Position numbers and translations under genes: made by a program
Origin: Steroidobacteraceae bacterium
GTDB taxonomy: Bacteria > Pseudomonadota > Gammaproteobacteria > Steroidobacterales > Steroidobacteraceae
Assembly: GCA_019634915.1 (NCBI GenBank)
Contig: JAHCAN010000019.1
Coordinates: forward strand, 1-49,232
Direction of reading: 5' to 3'
Length of the DNA stretch: 49,232 nt
Shown: positions 16,930-37,217 of the stretch, one piece after another
Layout of the letters: each line of letters begins with the position of its first letter
Position numbering within the stretch: position 1 is the first letter of the stretch
Notes under the pieces: generated by a model
Told to the model about the DNA's origin: nothing
What the model saw: only the letters and a program-made list of their open reading frames with translations
The model's database searches: none

Positions 16930-17014
16930 GCCCAGGTGGCGGAATTGGTAGACGCACTAGCTTCAGGTGCTAGCGGGTAACTCCGTGGAGGTTCGAGTCC
17001 TCTCCTGGGCACCA
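16930..17014 (+). tRNA. tRNA-Leu (anticodon CAG)
   Basis: An 85 nt class II tRNA with encoded CCA. Acceptor arms GCCCAGG / CCTGGGC pair fully. The D arm contains GGCGGAATTGGTAGACGC. The anticodon stem CTAGC/GCTAG holds loop TTCAGGT, giving CAG. The variable arm GGGTAACTCC and T arm GAGGTTCGAGTCCTC are intact. It decodes CUG. Leucine tRNA genes are common integration targets and a decayed element begins right after this one. Confidence 0.96.
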
Positions 17015-17061
17015 CGACCAAGTTTCAGGGCATCTCAAAAAATCTCGAAGCGACGCCAAGA

Positions 17062-17084
17062 CCCCGCAAATCGCGGGGTTTTTT
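17062..17084 (+). terminator. Rho-independent terminator after tRNA-Leu
   Basis: CCCCGC and GCGGGG form a 6 bp GC stem with a 5 nt loop, followed by six T residues. It would end the tRNA transcript. Confidence 0.85.
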
Positions 17085-17142
17085 GTATCTGGCAGTCTCG
17101 CGCCGTACCATGCAATCGCGCCCTTCGTGGGCGTACGAATGA

Positions 17143-17424
17143 GGGTACATCCGGGTCGAGAAAACGCATAGCAAGGCCCAGTACGTCATCGACGCGTACT
17201 TGGGCCCCGCCCTGCGCCGACACTCCATTGCAACCCTGAAAACCAAGGATGCGGTCGATGCCCTTCAAGGCATCCCGCCATCACTCGCGAGGAAAGCGCG
17301 GCAGTACCTCTGCGGCATCGTGAACCATGCGATCCGGGAAGAGTTGCGCGAGGACGGTCGTCTGTTGTCGTTGCAAGGCGCCCTTCCAAAGTATCAGAAA
17401 GGTCACATACCCGGCGCCACCGAA
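17143..17424 (+). pseudogene. Tyrosine recombinase (P4-type integrase) remnant
   Basis: An open stretch without a start codon (stop TGA at 17140-17142) reads GYIRVEKTHSKAQYVIDAYL, then LKTKDAVDALQGIPPSLARK and ARQYLCGIVNHAIREELRED, ending near GHIPGATE. This resembles the middle core-binding part of tRNA-targeting P4-family integrases. The N-terminal arm-binding domain and the whole catalytic domain (R..H-x-x-R..Y) are missing. Position right after the tRNA and its terminator supports a dead integrase. The family call rests on my recognition of the motif, not on a search. Confidence 0.6.
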
Positions 17425-17541
17425 CATCATGAAGGCCTTGGCCCGTACCGCGGCCTTGGTTTCATCGTTCACGGAAGGTTCCCAGCGGTCTGGCTCGGAC
17501 GGGTTGTCCTTGACGCTGTTCGGTGAACCGCCGCAGCACGG
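17425..17541 (-). other. Unidentified coding remnant
   Basis: The minus strand is open from a stop at 17542-17544 and reads SPNSVKDNPSEPDRWEPS, then VNDETKAAVRAKAFMMFGG, which looks like real protein, not random GC-rich frame. It stops resembling anything near the integrase junction. I do not recognise the family. It may be a scrap of another island gene placed head-on against the integrase remnant. From here to 17707 I see no intact gene. Confidence 0.25.
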
Positions 17542-17707
17542 TCAGCGCTGCAGTGACTTCAGCCAGGGTTGGTTGGTTGCTGGTTCCGCGATGTTCCAGG
17601 ACCGCCTGGACAAAACCGACTCAAATGGGGCCAGGCTTGGTGACAGATCATCGGCAACGGTGGCGGGGACTGCTGGCTGACCGGCTCTCTGAAATTGGCC
17701 GGAGATA

Positions 17708-17723
17708 CTGTATATAAATACAG
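17708..17723. promoter_or_regulatory. Near-perfect LexA (SOS) box without an adjacent gene
   Basis: CTGTATATAAATACAG matches the CTG-N10-CAG LexA operator with an AT-rich centre and differs from the E. coli consensus CTGTATATATATACAG at a single base. TATAAA inside the box could serve as a -10 on the plus strand. The nearest downstream gene is abiEi, 189 nt away; on the other strand only remnants lie nearby. Either an SOS gene was lost or the box now feeds the abiE operon. Confidence 0.65.
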
Positions 17724-17789
17724 TCGCGTAGAGTCAAGGCCCTAGCGAGCGGCCGGGGAGTCCTCGTAAGCCCGCGGATCCCTATCGAT

Positions 17790-17881
17790 CTCATCAAAAT
17801 ATTGATCTTATGAGGATAAATATTAGATATAGATCAATCTAATTGTCTTGCTGAGGCGCTCCTCATAGATTAATATTTATC
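17790..17881 (+). promoter_or_regulatory. AT-rich promoter/operator region of the abiE operon
   Basis: A promoter TTGCTG (17848-17853), 17 nt, TAATAT (17871-17876) precedes abiEi. Inverted repeats surround it: GATAAATATTA (17815-17825) with TAATATTTATC (17871-17881, over the -10), ATGAGG (17810-17815) with CCTCAT (17861-17866), and ATCAA-AATA-TTGAT (17793-17806). AbiEi antitoxins are known to repress their own operon by binding inverted repeats through an N-terminal winged helix, so these are the expected operator sites. The sharp drop in GC marks this as imported DNA. Confidence 0.6.
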
Positions 17882-17911
17882 AAATTTTCATCCTATAAAG
17901 AGCGTTTTATT

Positions 17912-18754
17912 ATGAATACGCACTTTCGCACTCTTGGGCCTCGGGAGGCGCAGCTCGTCCTGACACTCAGCGAGCAGGGGCGCCACACGATTACCGCCGC
18001 TGAAGCCATCGAGCTGCTGGGTTCGAAAGGCAGCGCGCGCAATGTCATTCAGGGCCTCGTGCAGAAAGGATGGCTGATTCGGCTCGTCGGCGGACGCTAC
18101 CTGTTCCTGCCGCCCGAGCGCGGACCTGAGAACTTGGGCGAGAACAATGCCCTCGCACTGGCCTCGGCTGTCGTCGAGACCTCCTATGTCGGCTGGTGGG
18201 CAGCAGCGACCTTCCATAGCCTGACTACACAGAAGCCCTCTACGATTGCCGTGGCCGTGTTGCGCCAGCGGCCGGCTCGCGAGATCGAAGGCACCGCGAT
18301 CCGCTTCGTGAAAGTGGCTCGCCGCAAGTTCTACGGCTGTCAGGACTTCGAAATTTTTGGTCGCACCGTCCGACTGTCAACAGCTGCCAAAACTATCGTC
18401 GATTGCGTGGATCGCCCTGACCTCTGCGGCGGCCCATCCGAGCTGGCGCGCATCGTGTTCGGTGGCGCCTCACAAGCAGACCCTGCTGCCTTGGTCGAAG
18501 ACGCGCTGCGCATGCAGTCCACCGCCCTCATCCAGCGCCTGGGCTTTCTCGCCGACCTGGTCCGCTGGAAACTGGACCATACGCTGCGCGCCCGACTGCG
18601 CGCGGCAATCCCTTCGAGCGCGCGCTCCCATTTCGGTCGTACGGAGCGGCGGGAAGGAGACATGGGCTACGTGCACGACTGGGGCCTCTTCGTTCACGCC
18701 AGCCGCCGCGACCTCTTGGCCGACGTGCCACAGATCACTTCCGTGGCGGCATAG
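17912..18754 (+). CDS. abiEi: AbiEi-type antitoxin/transcriptional autoregulator
   Basis: A 280 aa protein. A winged-helix N-terminus (about 15-70: TITAAEAIELLGSKGSARNV, LVQKGWLIRLVGGRYLFLP) is followed by the AbiEi C-terminal domain (ETSYVGWWAAATFHSLTTQ; IRFVKVARRKFYG; VRLSTAAKTIVDCVDRPDLC). In type IV systems it counteracts AbiEii without binding it and represses the operon. The stop abuts the abiEii ATG with no gap. It is part of the island next to tRNA-Leu; phage-defence function is inferred from family. Confidence 0.85.
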   Translation: MNTHFRTLGPREAQLVLTLSEQGRHTITAAEAIELLGSKGSARNVIQGLVQKGWLIRLVGGRYLFLPPERGPENLGENNALALASAVVETSYVGWWAAATFHSLTTQKPSTIAVAVLRQRPAREIEGTAIRFVKVARRKFYGCQDFEIFGRTVRLSTAAKTIVDCVDRPDLCGGPSELARIVFGGASQADPAALVEDALRMQSTALIQRLGFLADLVRWKLDHTLRARLRAAIPSSARSHFGRTERREGDMGYVHDWGLFVHASRRDLLADVPQITSVAA

Positions 18755-19657
18755 ATGCTCACAACTCAGCAATTGCGCCAGGTTGCCGCGCGCTCCGGCG
18801 CGCGCGACATCGCCAATGTCGAGATCGACGTCATCCTGACCCAGCTGCTCCAGCTCTTTCACGAGAAGGGGCTGACGGAACATCTCGCCTTCAAGGGCGG
18901 AACCATGCTGCGCAAGATGGTATTTGGCCCACGCGGCAGGCTATCGACCGATCTGGATTTCACCCGCCGGACGGATATGACCCTTGATGATCTGATGCTG
19001 CTGCTGCTCGACGCACTCGAACAGCCCTACCACGGAATCGACTTTCGCTTCGACAGGGACAGGGACTGGTATCTGACAGACGATGGCTGTGCCGCCAACC
19101 CCGTCTGCAGTCACGCCGACAATCCGCGAGGAGTGAAGATCAAGCTCCAGATCAGCATACGGGAGAAGCCCGTCATGCCGGTCGTTGCTCAGCCACAGCT
19201 GCAGCAGGACTACTTCCGGTTGCTGCCTTTCGAGCCCGCCGACATCCCCAGCCTGGCGCTCGAGGAAGTGATCGCCGAAAAGGTACGCGCCGCAAATCAA
19301 CGCTCCAAGATCCGCGATCTGCACGACCTGAGCGAGCTTGCGGCACGGCCGTTCAACCGGGATCTCGTACGCAGCCTCGCGGTCCTGAAGCTGTGGAATA
19401 GCGGCGGTGCCGGGCTCAACTTCGACACGTTCCGCCGGAGCATTGAGGGTGGCGCCGACTACGATGTCGGCGACCTGCGCAATCTGCTGCGCAATGACCA
19501 AACGCCGGAGCTACCGACGATGATTCGTCGGGTGGTCGATGGCTTCCAGTTTCTCGGCATGTTGAGCGAGACCGAGCGCGCGCTCGCCGCGGATCGCGCG
19601 CTCCGATTGCGCGCCGAGGCACAGGCGCTGCAGCAGACCCTGATGAGGCGCGAATGA
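18755..19657 (+). CDS. abiEii: AbiEii-type nucleotidyltransferase toxin
   Basis: A 300 aa DUF1814 protein. The DNA-polymerase-beta-like nucleotidyltransferase motif is intact: FKGGTMLRKM (G48-G49-T50) followed by RLSTDLDFTRR (S64, D66, D68). A later KIRDLHDLSEL motif and the all-helical C-terminus are also present. Relatives such as MenT/AbiEii add nucleotides to tRNA or other targets and halt growth during phage infection. Its stop overlaps the next gene by ATGA. All catalytic residues I can identify are kept, so it is probably functional. Confidence 0.87.
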   Translation: MLTTQQLRQVAARSGARDIANVEIDVILTQLLQLFHEKGLTEHLAFKGGTMLRKMVFGPRGRLSTDLDFTRRTDMTLDDLMLLLLDALEQPYHGIDFRFDRDRDWYLTDDGCAANPVCSHADNPRGVKIKLQISIREKPVMPVVAQPQLQQDYFRLLPFEPADIPSLALEEVIAEKVRAANQRSKIRDLHDLSELAARPFNRDLVRSLAVLKLWNSGGAGLNFDTFRRSIEGGADYDVGDLRNLLRNDQTPELPTMIRRVVDGFQFLGMLSETERALAADRALRLRAEAQALQQTLMRRE

Positions 19658-20037
19658 ACATGCCCGCTACGCCGATAGAGCGGTTCCTCGACTCGGTGCG
19701 ACATCAGCTGCCCGCATACCGACACTCATCGATCTCATTCGTGCCCTTGGTGCATGACGGCTACGAGACCATCGTGCGCCATGACTGCCTGTGGTCCCGG
19801 GAAGCTGCTGAAGGACGCGCACAGGGGAAGGACCGCCCTGCTTGCCTCGTCGCCGTGAACGACAGCGCGATCGAACCGCGCTTCGTCGTCCTGCTGCCCG
19901 TCACGCACTCTGCGCCGATCGGCGACACTGTTGGCATCGAGATTCCAGCCAAGGTGCGCCAGGCAATCGGACTGGATGGCCAACCAGGTTGGGTTGTCGT
20001 CTCGGAATACAACAGCGAGGCGGTAGAGCGCAGCTGA
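19654..20037 (+). CDS. PemK/MazF-like protein coupled to AbiEii, possibly C-terminally truncated
   Basis: A 127 aa protein. After a 45-residue leader it reads DCLWSREAAEGRAQGKDRPA, then VVLLPVTHSAP and GIEIPAKVRQAIGLDG with WVVVSEYN. This resembles the distant PemK/MazF-like proteins found in proteobacterial mobile DNA, whose shared features are K-x-R-P, P-V/I-T-H and W-V/I-V. Relatives usually continue past the EYN/ELN segment with a WPGPDLR-like stretch; here a stop follows after seven residues, close to the island edge. ATGA overlap with abiEii implies co-translation. Whether it is toxin, accessory or vestigial is open. Confidence 0.6.
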   Translation: MNMPATPIERFLDSVRHQLPAYRHSSISFVPLVHDGYETIVRHDCLWSREAAEGRAQGKDRPACLVAVNDSAIEPRFVVLLPVTHSAPIGDTVGIEIPAKVRQAIGLDGQPGWVVVSEYNSEAVERS

Positions 20038-20063
20038 CTGCCGGGCCGTACCGGGCACTGTGC

Positions 20064-20315
20064 TCAGGCGACGATCGTAAAATCGATGACGATCGCGCCC
20101 GGCTCGCGCTGCTGATACTCGATCGAAATGTGCTCGCCGAAGCGCTGCCGCAGCTGATCGAGCAGCGGCAGCGGGTCGTGATCGTTGACGAACCGCATCG
20201 CCTCGCCCGGCTGCAGCGCGCTCAGGGCGCCGAAGATGGCCGAGTGACGGAAACGGCGCGCGACGCCGCGCGCGTCGAAGAGGTGTGCGGCGGATGGGGA
20301 GCTGGCTTCTGGCAT
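20064..20315 (-). CDS. DUF2249 domain-containing small protein
   Basis: An 83 aa protein: HLFDARGVARRFRHSAIFGA, LSALQPGEAMRFVNDHDPLP, LLDQLRQRFG and a beta-rich end IVIDFTIVA are the DUF2249 pattern (TusA-like fold). Members often sit in FNR/DNR-controlled denitrification clusters. The ATG at 20313-20315 is chosen over longer frames because the domain begins right after it. It marks the return of ordinary chromosome after the island, 26 nt beyond its last gene. Confidence 0.8.
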   Translation of the reverse strand: MPEASSPSAAHLFDARGVARRFRHSAIFGALSALQPGEAMRFVNDHDPLPLLDQLRQRFGEHISIEYQQREPGAIVIDFTIVA

Positions 20316-20350
20316 GGAACTGCTCTTTCGCAGCGACGGGCTGCTATAGG

Positions 20351-20396
20351 GGACCGATTTGGTCCACATTATTGCGCCCACGCCGCAGTGACGCAA
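20351..20396 (-). promoter_or_regulatory. Promoter with palindrome over the start site, upstream of DUF2249 gene
   Basis: On the minus strand TTGCGT (20391-20396), 17 nt, AATAAT (20368-20373) forms a reasonable promoter. The predicted start (about 20361) falls inside a perfect palindrome with arms GGACC and GGTCC and a 5 nt centre (20351-20365). It could be an operator or a 5' hairpin. I see no FNR-type site here. Confidence 0.45.
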
Positions 20397-20500
20397 GCGG
20401 GAAGCCGACGGCGGCGGGCGGCACGTATGGCAGCACCCCGGAGCGCGCAGGCAGAATGTGCGCAGCGCCGGCATCGCGTGCGCATCGAGGAGAGACGGGA

Positions 20501-23447: not shown

Positions 23448-24128
23448 ATGGAATTCTATGTCACGACTCACGGGGTACTGCGCTGGCTGCACGTACTCGC
23501 GATGGTCTACTGGCTGGGCGGTGAATGGGGTGTGTTCAACACCTCGCGCTACGTCACCAACATGAACCTGTCGCTCGACGAGCGCCGCCGTCACATGGAC
23601 ACGGCCTTCCGCATCGACATCCTCGCGCGCCTCGGCATCATCCTGCTGCTGCCGCTCGGCATCCACATGGGCTACGACCTCGGCATGCAGCCGCTCGGCG
23701 GGCCGTGGATCACCGCGACCTGGATCTTCTTCGGCGCCTGGCTGTGCCTGACGCTCGCGGCGTTCTTCACCCACCAGACCGACCTCGGGCTGAAACTGAC
23801 GCGCATCGACGAGGCGCTGCGCTACGTGCTGATCCCCGCGCTGCTGGTACCGGGCGTCATGGGCCTGTTCGGCATGGGTCCGCTCGCCGCGCGCTGGTAC
23901 GCGTTCAAGGTGACGCTGTACGCGATCCTGCTGATCATGGGGCTCGTGCTGCGCGTCGTGATGCGCCACTGGGTCACGCTGTTTCGCAGCCTCGACGCCG
24001 GTGCCTCGCGCTCGTCGGTCGAAGCGCAGCTCGGCCGCGAGATTGCGCTGGCGCGCGTGCTCGCCTATTTCTACTGGGTGGGCATCGCGACGGTCGGTTT
24101 CTTCGGGGTCGTCAAGCCGATCGTCTAG
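23448..24128 (+). CDS. Integral membrane protein of unknown function (CopD-like topology)
   Basis: 226 aa with about five hydrophobic helices (13-30, 60-78, 85-108, 128-147, 155-175) and one at the C-terminus (203-222). His8 and His15 in VTTHGVLRWLHVLAMVYW and His118 (FFTHQTD) lie in or near membrane segments. The pattern resembles small CopD/HemJ-type haem or copper membrane proteins, but that is only a hint. It opens a plus-strand run (membrane protein, Usp, hemolysin III, HemN-like, FNR). A GGGACGGGGTGAG site precedes the ATG. Confidence 0.7.
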   Translation: MEFYVTTHGVLRWLHVLAMVYWLGGEWGVFNTSRYVTNMNLSLDERRRHMDTAFRIDILARLGIILLLPLGIHMGYDLGMQPLGGPWITATWIFFGAWLCLTLAAFFTHQTDLGLKLTRIDEALRYVLIPALLVPGVMGLFGMGPLAARWYAFKVTLYAILLIMGLVLRVVMRHWVTLFRSLDAGASRSSVEAQLGREIALARVLAYFYWVGIATVGFFGVVKPIV

Positions 24129-25068: not shown

Positions 25069-25719
25069 ATGATGCCCCACTACGGCTCTGCCCTCGAGCG
25101 GCTCGCCGACCAGTGGGTGCACATCGTCGGCATCACCGCCGCCGGCGTGGGCGCGCTGTTCCTGCTGTCGCTTGCGCTGCAGGGCGGACAGGCCGGCGAG
25201 ATCGCCGCCGTCGCGATCTACGGCGCCGGACTCGTCGCCACCTTCACCTGCTCCATCGCCTACAACCTGACCCGCGCGCCGGCGCGCCAGCGCGTGCTGC
25301 GCCGCTTCGACCACGCCGCGATCTACCTGATGATCGCGTGCTCCTACACGCCGTTCACGACCCGGTGCCTGCGCGGCGGGTGGGCCGTCGGCATGACCGT
25401 CGCGGTCTGGACGATCGCGCTCGCCGGCATCGTCACAAAGCTCGCCTTCCCGAGCCTGCCGCGCAAATGGTCGGTGGCCGGCTATCTCGCGCTCGGCTGG
25501 ATCGCGCTCGTCGCGCTCGTACCGATGTTCGAGAGCGTGCCGCGGGCGGCGATGTGGCTGATCGCGGCCGGCGGGCTCGTCTACTCGCTCGGCGTGCCGG
25601 TCTACGTGTCGAAGCGGCTGCCGTTTCGCCGCGCGATCTGGCATGGCTTCGTGATCACGGCCGCGGCGCTGCACTGGGTAGCGGTCCTGATCGTGGTCGT
25701 CGCCCCGCCGCTCGCCTGA
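25069..25719 (+). CDS. Hemolysin III family membrane protein (PAQR superfamily)
   Basis: A 216 aa seven-helix protein of the YqfA/TrhA type. Conserved PAQR residues are visible: SIAYNLTRAP, RRFDHAAIYLMIACSYTPFT and the C-terminal IWHGFVITAAALHWVAV, which provide the predicted metal-binding Ser, Asp and His set. Roles in membrane fluidity sensing or lipid hydrolysis are discussed for the family. It starts 10 nt after the Usp gene, so they are probably co-transcribed. Its stop codon lies within the FNR-type palindrome at 25715-25730. Confidence 0.87.
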   Translation: MMPHYGSALERLADQWVHIVGITAAGVGALFLLSLALQGGQAGEIAAVAIYGAGLVATFTCSIAYNLTRAPARQRVLRRFDHAAIYLMIACSYTPFTTRCLRGGWAVGMTVAVWTIALAGIVTKLAFPSLPRKWSVAGYLALGWIALVALVPMFESVPRAAMWLIAAGGLVYSLGVPVYVSKRLPFRRAIWHGFVITAAALHWVAVLIVVVAPPLA

Positions 25720-25730
25720 TCCAGATCAGG
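25715..25730. promoter_or_regulatory. FNR/ANR-type palindrome upstream of the hemN-like/fnr pair
   Basis: CCTGATCCAGATCAGG is a perfect inverted repeat. Its core CTGAT-N4-ATCAG differs from the FNR consensus TTGAT-N4-ATCAA only at the two outermost bases. It lies 32 nt before the hemN-like ATG and covers the hemolysin III stop. FNR encoded 1.2 kb downstream would be expected to bind it, giving autoregulation. Confidence 0.55.
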
Positions 25731-25762: not shown

Positions 25763-26911
25763 ATGCCCGATGCGCACCACCTCGACGCGGTACGCCCGTA
25801 CGCGTGCCTCAGCACGGCATTCGACGAGCCGGCCTGGCGGGACGAGGCCGAGCGCAGCAATGCCGAGCCGATTCCGCGCGCGCTCGTGCTGCGGATCGAG
25901 ACCAGCGGCGACATCGAACGGCTGCTCCGCGAGATCGAACTCGTCGCGCCGCACTTCGATCGTGACCGGGACGTGGTCGCGGTGCACGTCGAGGCCGCCG
26001 TCGTGCCCTCGCCGGCCAGGCTCGGCGCATTGCTCGGGAGTCTCGAGCGCCATTTCCACTTCGCGCCGGCCGGCCGGGCCGCGCGCTCGCTCGGCGTCGG
26101 CGCACGGCGCGTGCGTCACGGCGATTTCGCGGCGTTTGCCGCTCTCGGCTTCGTGCAGGTCAATTTCGCGGCCGGCTCCCGGGATCTCGACAGCGCGCTG
26201 CGGGGCATTGCCGCCGCCCGCGCGCAAGGCGTGCACCGCACCGGTCTCGAGGCGAGCCTGCCCGCGACCGCGGAGAGCGCGGGCGGGCCCGACCTCGACG
26301 CCATGATCGATGCGCAGCCGCAGCAGCTCGCGCTGCGCCTGGCCGGGGTACCGGACGGCGCCGCGCCGATCGACACGCTCGCGACGCTGGCCACGGCACT
26401 GCATGCCGGCGGTTACCGCGACATCGGTCTCGATGCGCGCCCGCTCGCCTGGCTCGAAGAGGGTCCACCCCGCATCGCCGGCGTCACCGGGCACAGCGCG
26501 ACGCCGGTGCCCGGCCAGGAGGTCGACCTGATCGGCTTCGGTCCCGGCGCGCGCGCGCGCATCGGCGACGCGATCTGCGAGAATCTTGCCGACCCCGACG
26601 CATGGAGTGCCGCGATCGACGCCGGCAGGCTGCCGCTCTGGCGCGGGTTGACGCTCGACACCGAGGCGAGGCTGCGCACCGACGTGGTCGGCCAGTGGCT
26701 GCGCAACGGCGAAATCGACATCGAAGCGGTCGAGCGCCGCTACGGCATCGTGTTCGGCGAGTACTTCGCCGACGCGCTCGGGCGGCTCGAGCCCTGTGCG
26801 CGCGAAGGGCTCGTCAGCCACATGCCCTCGTACGTGAGGGCCACGTCGCGCGGCCGGCTGATGCTGCGTATCATGGCGCGGTGCTTCGATCCGCCCGACC
26901 CACACCGATAG
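25763..26911 (+). CDS. HemN-like protein lacking the radical SAM cysteine motif
   Basis: A 382 aa homologue of oxygen-independent coproporphyrinogen III oxidase (normally about 455 aa). The C-terminal HemN region is clear: GGYRDIGLDARPLAW, VDLIGFGPGARARIGDAICE, AAIDAGRLPLWRG, YGIVFGEYFADALGRLEP and TSRGRLMLRIMARCFD. The N-terminal ERSNAEPIPRALVLRIE segment also aligns. But the PFC-xxx-C-xx-C loop that binds the 4Fe-4S cluster is deleted, and GGGTP is replaced by HVEAAVVPSP. Only scattered cysteines remain. It therefore cannot be a standard radical SAM oxidase. It is 31 nt overlapped with fnr. Canonical hemN often neighbours anr in pseudomonads, so this may be a retained pseudoenzyme. Confidence 0.8.
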   Translation: MPDAHHLDAVRPYACLSTAFDEPAWRDEAERSNAEPIPRALVLRIETSGDIERLLREIELVAPHFDRDRDVVAVHVEAAVVPSPARLGALLGSLERHFHFAPAGRAARSLGVGARRVRHGDFAAFAALGFVQVNFAAGSRDLDSALRGIAAARAQGVHRTGLEASLPATAESAGGPDLDAMIDAQPQQLALRLAGVPDGAAPIDTLATLATALHAGGYRDIGLDARPLAWLEEGPPRIAGVTGHSATPVPGQEVDLIGFGPGARARIGDAICENLADPDAWSAAIDAGRLPLWRGLTLDTEARLRTDVVGQWLRNGEIDIEAVERRYGIVFGEYFADALGRLEPCAREGLVSHMPSYVRATSRGRLMLRIMARCFDPPDPHR

Positions 26912-27621
26912 CCGACGACGGCGACGACTTCCATTTCTGCAGCACCTGCGCGTTCTCGGCCGCCTGTCTCGAGAGCGGTTATGACAAGTCGCAACTGCGC
27001 GAGCTGCACGTGCTGGTCGAGCACATCGGGCCGTTCGCCGAAGGCGAGCACATCTTCCGCGAGGGCGATGCGTTCAACGCGATCGCGGCCGTGCGCTCGG
27101 GCACCGTGAAGACCTACGTGAACGACGCGAACGGCCGCGAGCAGGTGCAGGGCTTCTTCCTGCCCGGCGAGATGATCGGCCTCAGCGCGATCTCGCAGGC
27201 ACGCTATCCGTGCAACGCGGTCGCGCTCGAACCGACCGTGCTGTGCCGCTTCTCGTTCCCGTCGATGGCCGCGCTCGCCACCCGCATGCCGGGCCTGCAG
27301 CAGCAGATGTTCCGCCTGCTGAGCCAGGACATCGGCAAGGCGGCGCTGCTCGCCGGCAATTACACCGCCGACGAGCGCATGGCCGCCTTCCTCGTCTCGC
27401 TGTCGCGCCGCTATGCGGTGCGCGGCTTCCCGCCGACGCGCTTCACGCTCTCGATGACCCGCACCGACATCGCCAACTACCTGCGGCTCGCCGCCGAGAG
27501 CGTGAGCCGCGTCTTTCGCCGCTTCCAGGACGACGGCCTGATCCGGGTCGACCGGCGGGAGATCGAGATCCTGCAGCCGCGTGCCCTCGAGGCGCTCGCA
27601 CGCAGCGTGCTGCGCGAGTAG
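26881..27621 (+). CDS. fnr: FNR/ANR oxygen-sensing transcription regulator
   Basis: A 246 aa CRP/FNR regulator. With the GTG start, the cluster cysteines fall at 20, 23, 29 and 122, exactly the E. coli FNR numbers (FCSTCAFSAACLES and TVLCRF), so it should bind an O2-labile 4Fe-4S cluster. The cyclic-nucleotide-like barrel (GEHIFREGDAF, GFFLPGEMIGL) precedes the dimer helix. The HTH MTRTDIANYLRLAAESVSRV keeps the E-x-x-S-R contacts that read TTGAT half sites. The start lies inside the 3' end of the hemN-like gene, implying coupled translation. Probable targets are the palindromes at 25715 and 27653. Confidence 0.95.
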   Translation: MLRSARPTPIADDGDDFHFCSTCAFSAACLESGYDKSQLRELHVLVEHIGPFAEGEHIFREGDAFNAIAAVRSGTVKTYVNDANGREQVQGFFLPGEMIGLSAISQARYPCNAVALEPTVLCRFSFPSMAALATRMPGLQQQMFRLLSQDIGKAALLAGNYTADERMAAFLVSLSRRYAVRGFPPTRFTLSMTRTDIANYLRLAAESVSRVFRRFQDDGLIRVDRREIEILQPRALEALARSVLRE

Positions 27622-28276: not shown

Positions 28277-29770
28277 ATGAACAAGCTGCTCGCCCTCTTC
28301 ATTTGTACCGCCGCGCTCGCGCTCGGCGCCTGCACCCAATCCGCGCCGACGACCGCGCGCGCACCCGAAACGGGCGGCTCGCGCAAGGGCGACTTCGGTC
28401 CGCCACAGGGCGAGCCGATCCACGCGATCCTGACGAGCCCGCCGGAAGTGCCACCCCCGACCAACCGCAAGCACCCGGCGAAAGTGATCGTCGAGCTCGA
28501 GGTGATCGAGAAGGACATGGAGATCGCCGAGGGCGTCTCGTACACCTTCTGGACCTTCGGCGGCACGGTGCCGGGCAGCTTCATCCGCGTGCGCCAGGGC
28601 GACACGGTGGAGTTTCACCTGAAGAACCATCCGTCGAGCAAGATGCCGCACAACATCGACCTGCACGGCGTCACCGGGCCCGGCGGCGGCGCGGCATCGA
28701 CCTTCACGGCCCCCGGCCATCGCACGCAGTTCACGTTCAAGGCGCTGAACCAGGGCCTGTACGTCTACCACTGCGCGACCGCGCCGGTCGGCATGCACGT
28801 CGCGAACGGCATGTACGGGCTGATCCTCGTCGAGCCGCCCGAGGGCCTGCCCCCGGTCGATCACGAGTACTACGTGATGCAGGGCGATTTCTATACGGTC
28901 GGCAAGTACCGCGAGAAGGGCCACCAGCCCTTCGACATGCAGAAGGCGATCGACGAGAACCCGACCTACGTGCTGTTCAACGGCGCCGAGACGTCGATGA
29001 CCGGCCCGAACGCGCTCAAGGTCGGCACCGACCAGAGCGTGCGCATGTACGTCGGCAACGGCGGCCCGAATCTGGTGTCGAGCTTCCACCTGATCGGCGA
29101 GATCTTCGACAAGGTGCAGTACGAGGGCGGCACGCACTTCCAGGAGAACGTGCAGACCACGCTGATCCCGGCCGGCGGCGCGGTCACGGTCGAATTCCAC
29201 ACCGAGGTGCCCGGCAGCTACGTGATGGTCGACCACTCGATCTTCCGCGCGTTCAACAAGGGTGCGCTCGCGATCCTGCAGGTCGAAGGCGCCGAGAAGC
29301 CGCACATCTACTCGGGCAAGCAGGTCGACGAGATGTACATCGGCGACAAGGTCGCAAGCCTCGCGCCGGTCGCCGAAGCGGCCACCGCAAAGGCAACGGG
29401 CACGCTGACGAAGGCGCAGCAGATCGCGGCCGGCGGCGTGCTGTTCAAGGGCACCTGCTCGACCTGTCACCAGGAGAACGGCCGCGGACTCGCCAATGTG
29501 TTCCCGCCGCTCGCCGGCTCGGACTACCTGATGAAGGACCCGCAGCATGCGATCGAAGTGGTGCTGAACGGCCTCACCGGCCCGATCACCGTGAACGGCA
29601 ATCCCTATAACTCGGTCATGCCGCCGATGAGCCAGCTGAACGACGACGAGGTCGCGAACATCCTGACCTACGTGCTGAACAGCTGGGGCAACAGCGGACC
29701 GGCGATCGCGAAACAGGACGTCGCCAGGGTGCGTACCTCGACCAAGCGGCCTGAAGGGGCCGCGCATTGA
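28277..29770 (+). CDS. nirK: Copper nitrite reductase with fused C-terminal cytochrome c, lipoprotein form
   Basis: 497 aa. It reduces nitrite to nitric oxide in the periplasm. A lipobox LALGAC (Cys19) anchors it to a membrane. Two cupredoxin domains carry type 1 Cu ligands H125, C166, H174, M179 and type 2 ligands H130, H165, H320, with catalytic Asp128 and His271. After a short Ala/Thr linker (about 362-380) a class I cytochrome c domain has CSTCH (394-398) and the axial Met in SVMPPM (448). Such three-domain NirK forms tether their electron donor. ATG at 28277 is chosen for the signal peptide. It overlaps nirV by 4 nt. Confidence 0.96.
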
Positions 29771-30540
29771 GGACGAGCCTCCGCATCTGGCTCGGCAGCG
29801 CCGCGCTCGCGGCGGCGCTGCCCTGTCTCGCGGTCGAAGTACCGGGCGGGCGCTTCAACTCGGTGCTGCCGCCCGCGCAGGGCGTCCGGACGGTCACGGT
29901 TGCGCCGTTCGATCTCGACCGGACGCCGGTCACGAACGCCGAGTTCGCACGTTTCGTGCGCGAGCGGCCCGAATGGCGGCGCGACCGCGTCGCGCGCGTA
30001 TTCGCCGATACCGGTTACCTGCAACATTGGCGCACCGCCGGCGAACCCGGCGCGGCGCTCGCACGCCAGCCGGTCGTGCACGTCAGCTGGTTCGCGGCCA
30101 GCGCCTACTGCGAATCGAAGGGCGCGCGGCTACCGACCTGGTATGAATGGGAGTACACGGCGGCGGCGAGCGAAACGCAGCGCGACGGCCGCAACGACCC
30201 CGCGTGGCAGCAGCGCATCATCGCCTGGTATTCCCGCCCCGCGACGGCGACGCTGCCCGACGTGGGCGGGACGGCCGCCAACGTCTACGGCGTCCAGGAC
30301 CTGCACGGCCTCGTCTGGGAATGGGTCGAGGATCTCGCCGCGATGATGGTCTCGGGCGACAACCGCGACCAGGGCGACCCGGACATCATGAAATTCTGCG
30401 GCTCGGGCGCGCTCACGATGGAAGAGAAGGAGAACTACACGACGCTGATGCGCATCGCGATGCTGTCGAGCATGAAGGCGAGCTACACGTCGGCGACGAT
30501 GGGATTTCGCTGCGCGGCCGACCGGAAGGTGAGCCCATGA
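29767..30540 (+). CDS. nirV: Formylglycine-generating-enzyme-like protein NirV
   Basis: 257 aa with a signal peptide (about 1-22). The FGE-sulfatase fold is visible: [67 protein letters not shown] and SATMGFRCA. NirV proteins accompany nirK in many denitrifiers; a structural or maturation role is assumed. A TTG start overlaps the nirK stop (TTGA), and the stop overlaps the SCO start (ATGA). Cysteines are at CESKGA, KFCGSG and FRCA; the canonical FGE catalytic pair is not obvious, so formylglycine formation is doubtful. Confidence 0.88.
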
Positions 30541-31094
30541 GGAAGATGGGGATCCCGGCCCTGGCGCTCGCGACCCTGGCCCTGCTGGCCGGCACGGCGC
30601 CGGCTGCCGACCTGCCGCCCGATTCGATCTACCAGCTCGACGCGGCGCTGACGAGCGAATCGGGCAAGGCGATCGGCCTCGACGTGCATCGCGGCCATCC
30701 GGTCATGATCACGATGTTCTATGCGAGCTGCCCCGCGGCCTGCCCGCTGTTGATCGACACGATCCGCGCGGTCGAGCGCTCGCTCGGCAAGGAGCAGCTC
30801 GCGCGCACGCGCGTGCTGATGATCTCGATCGACCCGCAGCGTGACACGCCGGCCGCGCTGCTCGCGCTCGCGAAGAGCCGCCGCATCGACCTCACGCGCT
30901 GGACCCTGGCGACCGCCGACGAGGCCACCGTGCGCCGGATCGCCGCGCTGCTGTCGATCCAGTACCGGCGCCTGCCGGGCGGGGAGTTCAACCACTCGAG
31001 CATCATCACGGTGCTGTCGTCCGATGGTGAAATCCGGCGCCAGAGCTCGCTGCTCGGCCGCGTCGACCCGGAGATCGTGGCGGCCATCGAGTAA
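30537..31094 (+). CDS. SCO1/SenC-family copper chaperone
   Basis: 185 aa with an N-terminal signal sequence ending near APAADL. The thioredoxin fold has the copper-binding C65-x3-C69 in FYASCPAACP and the distal His153 in EFNHSS. SCO proteins deliver copper to periplasmic cuproenzymes, classically CuA of cytochrome oxidase. Coupled to nirK-nirV by ATGA overlap, it is best read as the copper supplier for NirK. The copper ligands are all present. Confidence 0.92.
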   Translation: MRKMGIPALALATLALLAGTAPAADLPPDSIYQLDAALTSESGKAIGLDVHRGHPVMITMFYASCPAACPLLIDTIRAVERSLGKEQLARTRVLMISIDPQRDTPAALLALAKSRRIDLTRWTLATADEATVRRIAALLSIQYRRLPGGEFNHSSIITVLSSDGEIRRQSSLLGRVDPEIVAAIE

Positions 31095-35250: not shown

Positions 35251-36120
35251 CTAGCGCGTTCCCGCGGCGTCCTTGAAGTAGCGGAAGAACTCGCTGTCGG
35301 GGCTCACCACGAGCACGTCGTCCCTGCCGATCGAGGTGCGATAGGCCTGCAGGCTGCGGTAGAACGCGTAGAACTCGGGATTGCGCTCGTACGCCTTCGC
35401 GTAGGTGGCGGCGGCGACCGCGTCGCCCTCGCCACGGATGCGCAGCGCGTCGCGCGCGGCGGCCGAGAGGATCTCGGTACGCTTGCGGTCGGCCTCGGCC
35501 TTGATGCGCTGGTTGTCCTTCTCGCCCTCGCCGCGCAGCTGGCGCGCCTGCTTCTCGAAGTTCTGCTTCATGTTGTCGTAGACGCGCGCCGCGACGTCGT
35601 CGGGCAGGTCGATGCGCTGCACGCGCACGTCCATCAGCTCGATGCCGAACTCGTCGACGGCCTGGCTCGCCCGGCCGAACATCTCGCCGGTCACGGCCGC
35701 GCGCTCGGCGGTCACGACTTCCTGCAGCGTGCGCTGCGCGACGGCGTTCTTGATGCCGTCCTTGACGATGTCGGCGAGGCGCTGGCCGGCCGCCTCCTCG
35801 TTGCCGCCGGTCGCGCGGAAATATTTCGCCGCGTCGGCAACGCGCCATTTGACGTAGAAGTCGACCAGCAGGCCGCGGTTCTCGTTCGTCAGGAAGGTCT
35901 CGCCCGCGTAGTTCTGCGTGACGACGCGCCGCTCGAAGCGCGCGACCTGGTCGATGAACGGCCACTTCATGTGCAGGCCGGGGCCGTAGTCGCCGCCCTG
36001 GATCTCGCCGAACTGCGTGCGGATCGCGAGCTGCGTCTGCTGCACCGTGAACAGCGAGGAGCTCGCAACGATCAGCAGCGCCACGAGGCCGAGCATCCAG
36101 GGGGTCACGCGCGGCGACAT
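35251..36120 (-). CDS. hflC: FtsH protease modulator HflC
   Basis: 289 aa SPFH/band-7 membrane protein that forms a cage with HflK around FtsH. One N-terminal membrane helix (about 8-26, LGLVALLIVASSSLFTV) is followed by the stomatin-like domain (HMKWPFIDQVARFERRV; MDVRVQRIDLPDDVA) and a coiled coil. It starts inside the hflK stop (TGATG). Confidence 0.96.
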   Translation of the reverse strand: MSPRVTPWMLGLVALLIVASSSLFTVQQTQLAIRTQFGEIQGGDYGPGLHMKWPFIDQVARFERRVVTQNYAGETFLTNENRGLLVDFYVKWRVADAAKYFRATGGNEEAAGQRLADIVKDGIKNAVAQRTLQEVVTAERAAVTGEMFGRASQAVDEFGIELMDVRVQRIDLPDDVAARVYDNMKQNFEKQARQLRGEGEKDNQRIKAEADRKRTEILSAAARDALRIRGEGDAVAAATYAKAYERNPEFYAFYRSLQAYRTSIGRDDVLVVSPDSEFFRYFKDAAGTR

Positions 36121-37217
36121 CAGCGCTCTCCCCGCTGGCGACCGTCGACCGTGACGGTCTCCGGTTCCGACGCCGCGCCGGATGCCGGCCGCGAGCCGGC
36201 GCTGGTATCGACCTCGCGCGCACGCCCCTCGGTCAGCTTGTCGAGCGGCAGATAGATCAGACTGTTGCCGACGCCCTTCGAGTCGATCACCACTTTCTTC
36301 GAGCCCTTCAGCACGCTTTCGATCGTGTCGATGTAGAGCCGCCGCCGGGTCACGGCCGGTGCGGCTTCGTAGGCAGCCCGCAGCTGCGTGAAGCGTGCGG
36401 CCTCGCCCTCGGCGAGCGCCGTGACCTGCGCCTTGTAGCCTTCGGCGTCCTGGATCTGGCGTGCCGCCGCGCCTTCGGCGACCGGAATGATGCCGCTCTG
36501 GTAGGCCTCGGCCTCCTTCTGCAGGCGGTCACGGTCGGCGATCGCCTTGTTCGCATCACGCTGCGAGGGCACGACCGCCTCGGGCACCTGCACCTCGGTC
36601 AGGTTGACGCTGGTGACGCGGATGCCGGTGCCGTAGAAATCGAGCGTGCGCTGGATCAGATCCTTGGTGCGCTCGGTGACCTGCTGGCGCGCCGACACGA
36701 GGATCGCCTCGAGCTCGCCGCGGCCGACGACTTCGCGGATCGCGCTCTCGCTGACTTCGCGCAGCGAGGATTCGGGATCGCGCACGCCGAACAGCATCTT
36801 CACCGGATCGCTGAACTGGTACTGCACGGCCAGCGTCAGGTTGACCAGGTTGACGTCGGCGGTCAGCACGCGCGACTCGTACTTGACGGTATTGACCTGC
36901 GAGACGTTGACCTTGGTGATCGTCTCGACGCCGCGCAGGCGCCAGCCGAGGCCGGGATCGCGCACGCCGACGAATTTGCCGAAGCGCTGCAGCACGCCGC
37001 GCTCGGCGGGCTGCACCTGGTAGAAGCCGCTCAGCAGCCAGACGGCCACGAGCGCGCCGAGCAGCAGCAGCGGCGAGAGCCCGCCGCCGCGCTTGCCGCC
37101 GCCGCCGAACAGCGACTCGAAACGGCGCTGCCATTCCTTCAGCGCCTGATCGAGGCCCTCGGGGCCGGGGCGCCTGCCCCAGGGATTCTGCTGACTGCCA
37201 GGTTGATTCCAAGCCAT
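36120..37217 (-). CDS. hflK: FtsH protease modulator HflK
   Basis: 365 aa partner of HflC. The Gly/Pro-rich cytoplasmic N-terminus MAWNQPGSQQNPWGRR leads to a membrane helix (about 58-78, LLLLGALVAVWLLSGFYQV). The band-7 domain follows (AERGVLQRFGKFVGVRDPGL; VNTVKYESRVLTADVNLVNL) with a coiled coil and a disordered tail. The ATG at 37215-37217 is chosen by the family N-terminus; it lies 2 nt after the hflX stop. Confidence 0.96.
   Translation of the reverse strand: MAWNQPGSQQNPWGRRPGPEGLDQALKEWQRRFESLFGGGGKRGGGLSPLLLLGALVAVWLLSGFYQVQPAERGVLQRFGKFVGVRDPGLGWRLRGVETITKVNVSQVNTVKYESRVLTADVNLVNLTLAVQYQFSDPVKMLFGVRDPESSLREVSESAIREVVGRGELEAILVSARQQVTERTKDLIQRTLDFYGTGIRVTSVNLTEVQVPEAVVPSQRDANKAIADRDRLQKEAEAYQSGIIPVAEGAAARQIQDAEGYKAQVTALAEGEAARFTQLRAAYEAAPAVTRRRLYIDTIESVLKGSKKVVIDSKGVGNSLIYLPLDKLTEGRAREVDTSAGSRPASGAASEPETVTVDGRQRGER

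Follow-up and report, generated by a model that had tools for sequence, protein, structure and literature searches.

A hemN-derived gene directly upstream of fnr

The window (the whole 49,232-nucleotide stretch of Steroidobacteraceae DNA analysed here) contains, at 25763..26911 on the forward strand, an ORF that is open throughout and encodes a protein of 382 amino acids, named HEMN-X in this work. Upstream lies a HlyIII-family gene (25069..25719, forward strand, domain match). Downstream, on the same strand, lies fnr (26881..27621), assigned by domain and family models to an Fnr-type regulator that contains C-x2-C-x5-C plus another cysteine in RYPCNAV; a GTG start is assumed, and the protein scores 196 bits against the Fnr subfamily model, below its 228-bit cut-off. 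If fnr starts at GTG 26881, the ORF coordinates give a 31-nt overlap between the two genes (26881..26911, forward strand), in agreement with a preliminary description of this locus. An FNR-like site, CTGATCCAGATCAG (25716..25729, forward strand; 8 of 10 consensus bases), lies 33 nt before the ATG of HEMN-X and overlaps the stop of the HlyIII gene. Genes for a copper nitrite reductase-cytochrome c fusion, an FGE-sulfatase-domain (NirV-like) protein and SCO follow downstream (28277..31094, forward strand; domain and family matches).

Several features of the surroundings are recorded here in their own right. In 5 of the 7 genomes of the genus, g1, the genes for NirK-cytochrome c, the NirV-like protein and SCO form a block that lies beyond fnr and SirB on the downstream side; a GT9 gene directly follows SirB in G003 and G004 (loci L099 and L100). 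The forward-strand gene at 23448-24128 encodes a membrane-like protein of 226 amino acids with no Pfam or NCBIfam match; it is 88-93% identical to its counterparts in the other six genus genomes and, with a dN/dS of about 0.02-0.04, is among the most conserved of the cluster. Between it and the USP gene, five of the seven genomes (L097-L101; not the window genome or G006) carry a gene for a 459-amino-acid protein resembling beta-CASP/metallo-beta-lactamase-fold nucleases, with matches below cut-off. At 16930-20400, a tRNA-Leu is followed by few called genes and by the ORFs 17912-18754 and 18755-19657, possibly a small island; neither ORF matched NCBIfam, and the two are reminiscent of an AbiE-type pair. 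An ARAGORN tRNA-Glu at 36094-36186 (forward strand), opposite the hflK-hflC junction, is likely a false positive.

The preliminary description had proposed that HEMN-X is a HemN homologue without the radical-SAM cysteines and GGGTP motif, with frame and C-terminal domain intact. Domain and family matches, alignment and motif scanning bear this out. The HemN_C domain (PF06969; residues 316-366, 26708..26860, forward strand) is retained, just over the Pfam cut-off (E 2.5e-5, 24.7 bits; cut-off 24). The hemN model TIGR00538 matched at E 4.2e-26 and 91.8 bits, below its cut-off of 324.95, and was the only family model listed; the HemW (TIGR00539) and ChuW/HutW (TIGR04107) models gave no match at E up to 1. 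E. coli HemN (1OLT) aligned at profile positions 49-377 with an E value of 1.5e-29 in a three-row profile.

A homologue search (E up to 1e-5) of 98 genomes, comprising the organism's own genome, genus, family and order, gave matches in 52. HEMN-X is present in all seven g1 genomes, the six other copies being 44-71% identical to the window copy. Motifs were scanned in the 30 best loci of this search plus the second HemN of G017, which covered 23 of the 45 non-g1 genomes with a match. CxxxCxxC and GGG[TS]P occur in none of the seven genus copies and in 23 of the 24 rows from other genera; the sole exception outside the genus is the fnr-linked copy of G017. GPRYTSYP and YGLP are likewise found in 0/7 genus copies versus 23/24 other rows, and [RK]NFxGY[TS] in 0/7 versus 19/24. 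In the window copy, alignment places the missing cysteine loop (about 23 residues in canonical HemN) at residues E46-G49 (25898..25909, forward strand), and the former GGGTP motif at residues 75-79, which read HVEAA (25985..25999, forward strand). This shortening of the loop amounts to about 23 residues for the window copy and is smaller in some genus members.

The loss is wider than first described: relative to canonical HemN, HEMN-X has lost not only the cysteine loop and GGGTP but also the N-terminal stretch, the segment that follows QDFD, the YGLP and RNFxGYT motifs and the tail at the C-terminus, and it has 382 residues versus 464-481 in eight canonical neighbours. No orthologue with restored cysteines was found in the genus. 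A sequencing error or wrong start is ruled out, the same loss being present in 7/7 genomes. The HemW motifs CxxxCxxC and HNxxYW are also absent from all seven copies, and the LYxHxPFCxxxCxxCxF motif does not occur in HEMN-X, the loop being absent or shortened.

Purifying selection on HEMN-X

Goldman-Yang fits gave HEMN-X dN/dS values of 0.136, 0.201 and 0.159 in three pairs, at dS of 1.26, 1.38 and 1.60, and w=1 was rejected in each (2dlnL 153, 96 and 141). When the gene was divided into six regions, all 18 region-by-pair estimates were below 1 (0.03-0.29). None of the seven copies has an in-frame stop. In neutral simulations, which modelled substitutions and not frameshifts, only 10-14 of 1000 runs remained stop-free at 0.6-0.8 substitutions per site, and 61 of 1000 at 0.3 substitutions per site. 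Because dN/dS is below 1 overall and in all regions, and because the frames stay open against the neutral simulation, HEMN-X is constrained, though less than most of its neighbours. In the same pairs, dN/dS is 0.028-0.031 for FNR, 5-7 times lower than for HEMN-X, and 0.02-0.08 for HlyIII, GT9, PurA, NirK and the membrane gene at 23448. USP gave 0.07-0.08 in two unsaturated pairs, its third pair being saturated (dS 23) and the ratio rough. SirB ranges from 0.04 to 0.16 and slightly exceeds HEMN-X in the G000-G004 pair, the only one of the three in which any tested neighbour does so.

Among the seven copies, 89 columns are invariant, H75, H97, H99 and R266 being examples, and the canonical majority residue is kept at 73 of them. 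At nine invariant columns (E28, D70, A210, L223, R226, W230, G262, L313 and R314) the residue is shared by no more than 2 of the 22 canonical rows.

One could still regard HEMN-X as an unneeded hemN relic that decays slowly and has not yet broken. Its identity to the window copy is 43-46% in five genus members and 70% in G004, versus 87-90% for FNR, and its dN/dS exceeds that of FNR by the factor given above. Moreover, decay does occur in one more distant genome. Before its fnr, G015 holds only a 156-amino-acid HemN remnant (L103, 6850-7320, with a stop at its end); the middle of the protein is missing and the HemN_C tail is out of frame. HemF was found in this genome, and HemE and HemJ were not. 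Within the genus, however, the scattered stops that simple decay would leave are seen in none of the seven copies, with dS at 1.3-1.6 in the pairs tested; about 1% of neutral runs are stop-free, and w=1 is rejected in 3/3 pairs. A hemN pseudogene undergoing simple decay is thus rejected for the genus, and slow decay, largely refuted there, is a poor candidate overall.

By sequence, HEMN-X has the properties that define a pseudoenzyme, with catalytic residues lost and the rest under purifying selection. The ORF, domain and family models, alignment, dN/dS and motif scan all point to a selected, catalytically dead HemN, a description that is very probably correct.

An inherited place before fnr

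In a protein tree, the seven HEMN-X sequences fall together as a single clade (100/100) at the end of a long stem. Support is weak (52/91) for a wider group that adds G048, G052, G017, G009 and G036; in four of these five genomes hemN is a neighbour of fnr. When the second G017 copy was left out, HEMN-X joined the fnr-linked G017 copy at 64/89.5, a grouping neither shown nor rejected. In the FNR protein tree, the order of lineages is not settled, 10 of 11 inner branches being open.

Among the eight nearest relatives fetched, fnr directly follows a canonical hemN on the same strand in five (G009, G033, G050, G048 and G036) and does not in G042, G052 and G023. The altered hemN of G017 also stands directly before fnr. 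No fnr was called next to three loci whose hemN belongs to a more distant type (G051, G026 and the second G017 copy), and no hemN was called in G059 by the simple gene caller. This distribution indicates that HEMN-X inherited its place next to fnr from a hemN-fnr arrangement and was not newly recruited there. The preliminary description had presented HEMN-X as coupled to the oxygen sensor. The adjacency and the overlap are real, whereas a special coupling to FNR does not follow from the adjacency, since a canonical hemN precedes fnr in five of eight relatives. Because the adjacency is inherited, the position beside fnr alone says nothing about modulation of FNR.

The FNR-like site is part of the same picture. 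Taken alone it is weak: the window holds 14 FNR-like sites with at most two mismatches, versus 3.6 expected. The site claimed at the outset nevertheless holds up by its position, as an FNR-like site (7-8 of 10 consensus bases) begins 46-50 nt upstream of the gene in 7/7 genus genomes. A site occurs at a similar place before hemN in G009, G048, G050 and G017; in G015 and G033 it lies 62 nt and 12 nt before the called start, and in G036 no site was seen at the corresponding position.

The main rival to the reading that we favour below is that HEMN-X serves FNR, either by contacting and tuning the regulator or by virtue of fnr translation requiring ribosomes that read through HEMN-X. The overlap, measured in six of the seven genus genomes (all except G006), is 31 nt in G000 and G004 and 37 nt in G001, G002, G003 and G005, with the GTG at the same place. 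The five canonical hemN-fnr pairs show no overlap by the start codons of the simple gene caller, although in three of them the open frame of fnr extends upstream of the called start and an earlier fnr start is possible. In addition, no Shine-Dalgarno sequence is visible before the fnr GTG, and an FNR-like site is shared. Against this, the hemN-fnr adjacency was inherited, and a pure leader predicts an open frame but no amino-acid conservation from end to end, whereas dN/dS stays below 1 in all six regions. We consider this rival unlikely, if worth keeping in view.

G017 offers a possible intermediate. Its fnr-linked HemN is full length (451 amino acids) and scores 400 bits with TIGR00538, above the cut-off, but it matches none of the seven HemN patterns tested, missing some by one residue and others by more. 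Of 124 columns chosen as near-invariant among 22 canonical rows, it retains 86. The rows used for that choice necessarily score high (122-124 in the five shown), and the second G017 HemN, which is outside the reference set and keeps 102, is the fairer control. At the other columns, the fnr-linked protein is identical to that of G009 at 179 of 338 positions (53%), close to the 55-61% that the canonical proteins of G050, G033, G048, G036 and G052 share with the G009 protein. Comparison with two canonical genes gave it dN/dS values of 0.053 and 0.074, rough at saturated dS, which fall within the 0.013-0.083 of five canonical hemN pairs, equally rough at saturated dS of 2.5-8.8. We read this copy as one that appears to have lost catalytic constraint first, without general decay. 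G017 also has HemF and a second HemN with the motifs, beside which lies a gene resembling hemE by eye. Because HemF and a motif-bearing HemN are present, the first copy could have been freed. The fnr frame of G017 extends back past the hemN stop codon, and the overlap may be shared with g1. G015 represents the other outcome, real decay of the fnr-linked hemN.

Haem synthesis in the genus and a possible role of HEMN-X

Profile searches of the seven g1 genomes, of which G002 and G006 are listed as 100% complete and the window's own genome as 79%, found no HemE, HemF, HemJ or ChdC and no HemN over the TIGR00538 cut-off. The second canonical hemN that the preliminary description had suggested looking for is thus absent from all seven: the 20 matches listed are all HemW-like or HEMN-X, and none exceeds the cut-off. 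Ferrochelatase (HemH) and a HemW with CxxKCPYC and HNxxYW are present in 7/7. As controls, the HemF model matched in 73 of the 98 genomes, 71 of them over cut-off, and outside g1 and a second genus of the family, g13, HemJ was found in 5 of 6 tested genomes and HemE in 4 of 5, the miss being G015 in both cases. The coproporphyrin route was rejected as a replacement, ChdC being found in 0/7. TIGR00562 matched in 19/19 genomes searched, never over cut-off, and the listed matches are N-terminal, reaching at most model position 166 of 470; HemY/CgoX in the genus is not supported and seems doubtful. Five ferrochelatase neighbourhoods were fetched, and in the two read gene by gene (L122 and L123) no other haem gene was recognised by eye.

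In nine genomes of family f1 (for example G057, G027 and G023), the HemF match crosses one stop codon; all nine matches stop short, at model position 271-284 of 295, and may represent a second, earlier-ending type of HemF.

The simplest reading is that genus g1 lost late haem synthesis, imports haem or protoporphyrin, and keeps ferrochelatase. The same pattern of late haem loss with ferrochelatase retained is found in Haemophilus influenzae. The genus is probably a haem auxotroph, as judged from the set of genes searched (HemE, HemF, HemN, HemJ, ChdC, HemY/CgoX, ferrochelatase and HemW). Haem auxotrophy is described as common among uncultured bacteria (PMC11139205). Genus g13 (G018, G037 and G053; genomes 98-100% complete) is probably a second haem-auxotroph genus of the family: HemE, HemF, HemN over cut-off, HemJ and ChdC are found in 0/3. 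HEMN-X is also found in 0/3, and since g13 shows the same haem gaps, loss of haem synthesis need not be accompanied by HEMN-X.

The loss of the catalytic site can be explained by this background, because genus g1 lacks HemE, HemF, HemJ and ChdC and keeps ferrochelatase. That HEMN-X works as a radical-SAM coproporphyrinogen oxidase is very unlikely, because it has lost the cluster together with the SAM-side and substrate motifs, and because HemE, the supplier of the substrate, was not found. It could be argued that HEMN-X fills the haem gap as a residual enzyme acting on coproporphyrinogen or coproheme without a radical-SAM cluster, given that known coproporphyrinogen oxidase and coproheme decarboxylase were not found in any of the seven genomes and that ferrochelatase is present. 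The substrate would, however, not be made in a cell without HemE and HemJ (neither found in 7/7), and g13 shares these gaps although it has no HEMN-X; we regard such an enzyme as highly improbable.

HEMN-X resembles HemN/CgdH (TIGR00538, 1OLT) in its homology over profile positions 49-377, its HemN_C domain and its place before fnr, as in five relatives; unlike HemN/CgdH, it has no cluster cysteines, GGGTP, GPRYTSYP, YGLP or RNFxGYT, has only 382 residues and scores 91.8 bits. The GPRYTSYPTA and RNFQGYTT motifs are needed for HemN/CgdH activity (PMC10320005). HemW is likewise HemN-like and N-terminally shortened, and is described as binding haem without radical-SAM activity (PMC11442138); the HemW proteins of the genus keep CxxxCxxC and HNxxYW in 7/7 genomes, whereas HEMN-X has neither. 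A further parallel is CgdH2 of Campylobacter jejuni, a HemN-like protein that has no coproporphyrinogen dehydrogenase activity, binds haem, takes haem from ferrochelatase (an enzyme also present in g1) and requires His45, a residue conserved among HemW-like proteins (PMC10320005). CgdH2 differs in that it keeps LYxHxPFCxxxCxxCxF and groups with menaquinone methyltransferases, whereas HEMN-X lost the motif and derives from HemN proper. In Pseudomonas, hemN is also close to an Fnr-type regulator and preceded by an Anr box; it lies downstream of anr, with a gene between them in some species, and is described as a coproporphyrinogen III oxidase (PMC6588701). HEMN-X, in contrast, is a relic upstream of fnr with the motifs missing.

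Taken together, we propose that HEMN-X is a selected, dead HemN from the hemN-fnr operon, kept for the handling of tetrapyrroles, and we assign a probability of roughly 0.4 to this statement as a whole. HEMN-X would have arisen from the hemN of the inherited operon. Once there was no more coproporphyrinogen to oxidise, what remained of HemN may have been kept as a non-catalytic protein, presumably made together with FNR at low oxygen. Its likeliest job would be to bind scavenged haem or protoporphyrin and to pass it to or from ferrochelatase and new cytochromes. Because the superfamily proteins HemW and CgdH2 can work as haem binders, non-catalytic tetrapyrrole handling is our leading guess; FNR modulation or translational coupling is the main rival. 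Several observations speak against tetrapyrrole handling. HEMN-X is missing the HNxxYW motif of HemW, the substrate-side motifs of HemN and, if His45 is the histidine of LYxHxPFC, as we infer, the residue needed by CgdH2. Its dN/dS is above that of all neighbours tested, SirB in 1/3 pairs apart; haem loss alone does not require HEMN-X, as the three g13 genomes show; and haem auxotrophy is itself inferred.

With both SAM-side and substrate-side motifs gone and nine new invariant positions, the barrel scaffold might instead have taken on a new function apart from tetrapyrroles and FNR. No partner or domain points elsewhere, however, and the gene still occupies the place of hemN before fnr with an FNR-like site, which makes this improbable. 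A combination of the two leading ideas, which we rate as a long shot, is that HEMN-X is a tetrapyrrole-responsive partner of FNR that senses imported haem or porphyrin and adjusts the oxygen sensor encoded in the same operon. If this were true, the haem-demanding denitrification genes would be switched on only when haem is available.

To our knowledge, a cluster-less HemN under selection in an fnr operon is new, although pseudoenzymes and HemN-like haem chaperones are already known. Among the open-literature matches listed, with subscription journals mostly outside their scope, no description of a HemN without the cysteines was found by title or start of abstract. Canonical hemN-fnr, the full-length G017 protein with failed motifs and the shortened HEMN-X would form a one-operon series from enzyme to pseudoenzyme, in which the placement of G017 on the same line as HEMN-X has a support of only 64/89.5. 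The series offers a testable case of what function remains once radical-SAM chemistry is removed. Haem auxotrophs of this kind might link their haem supply to the oxygen response.
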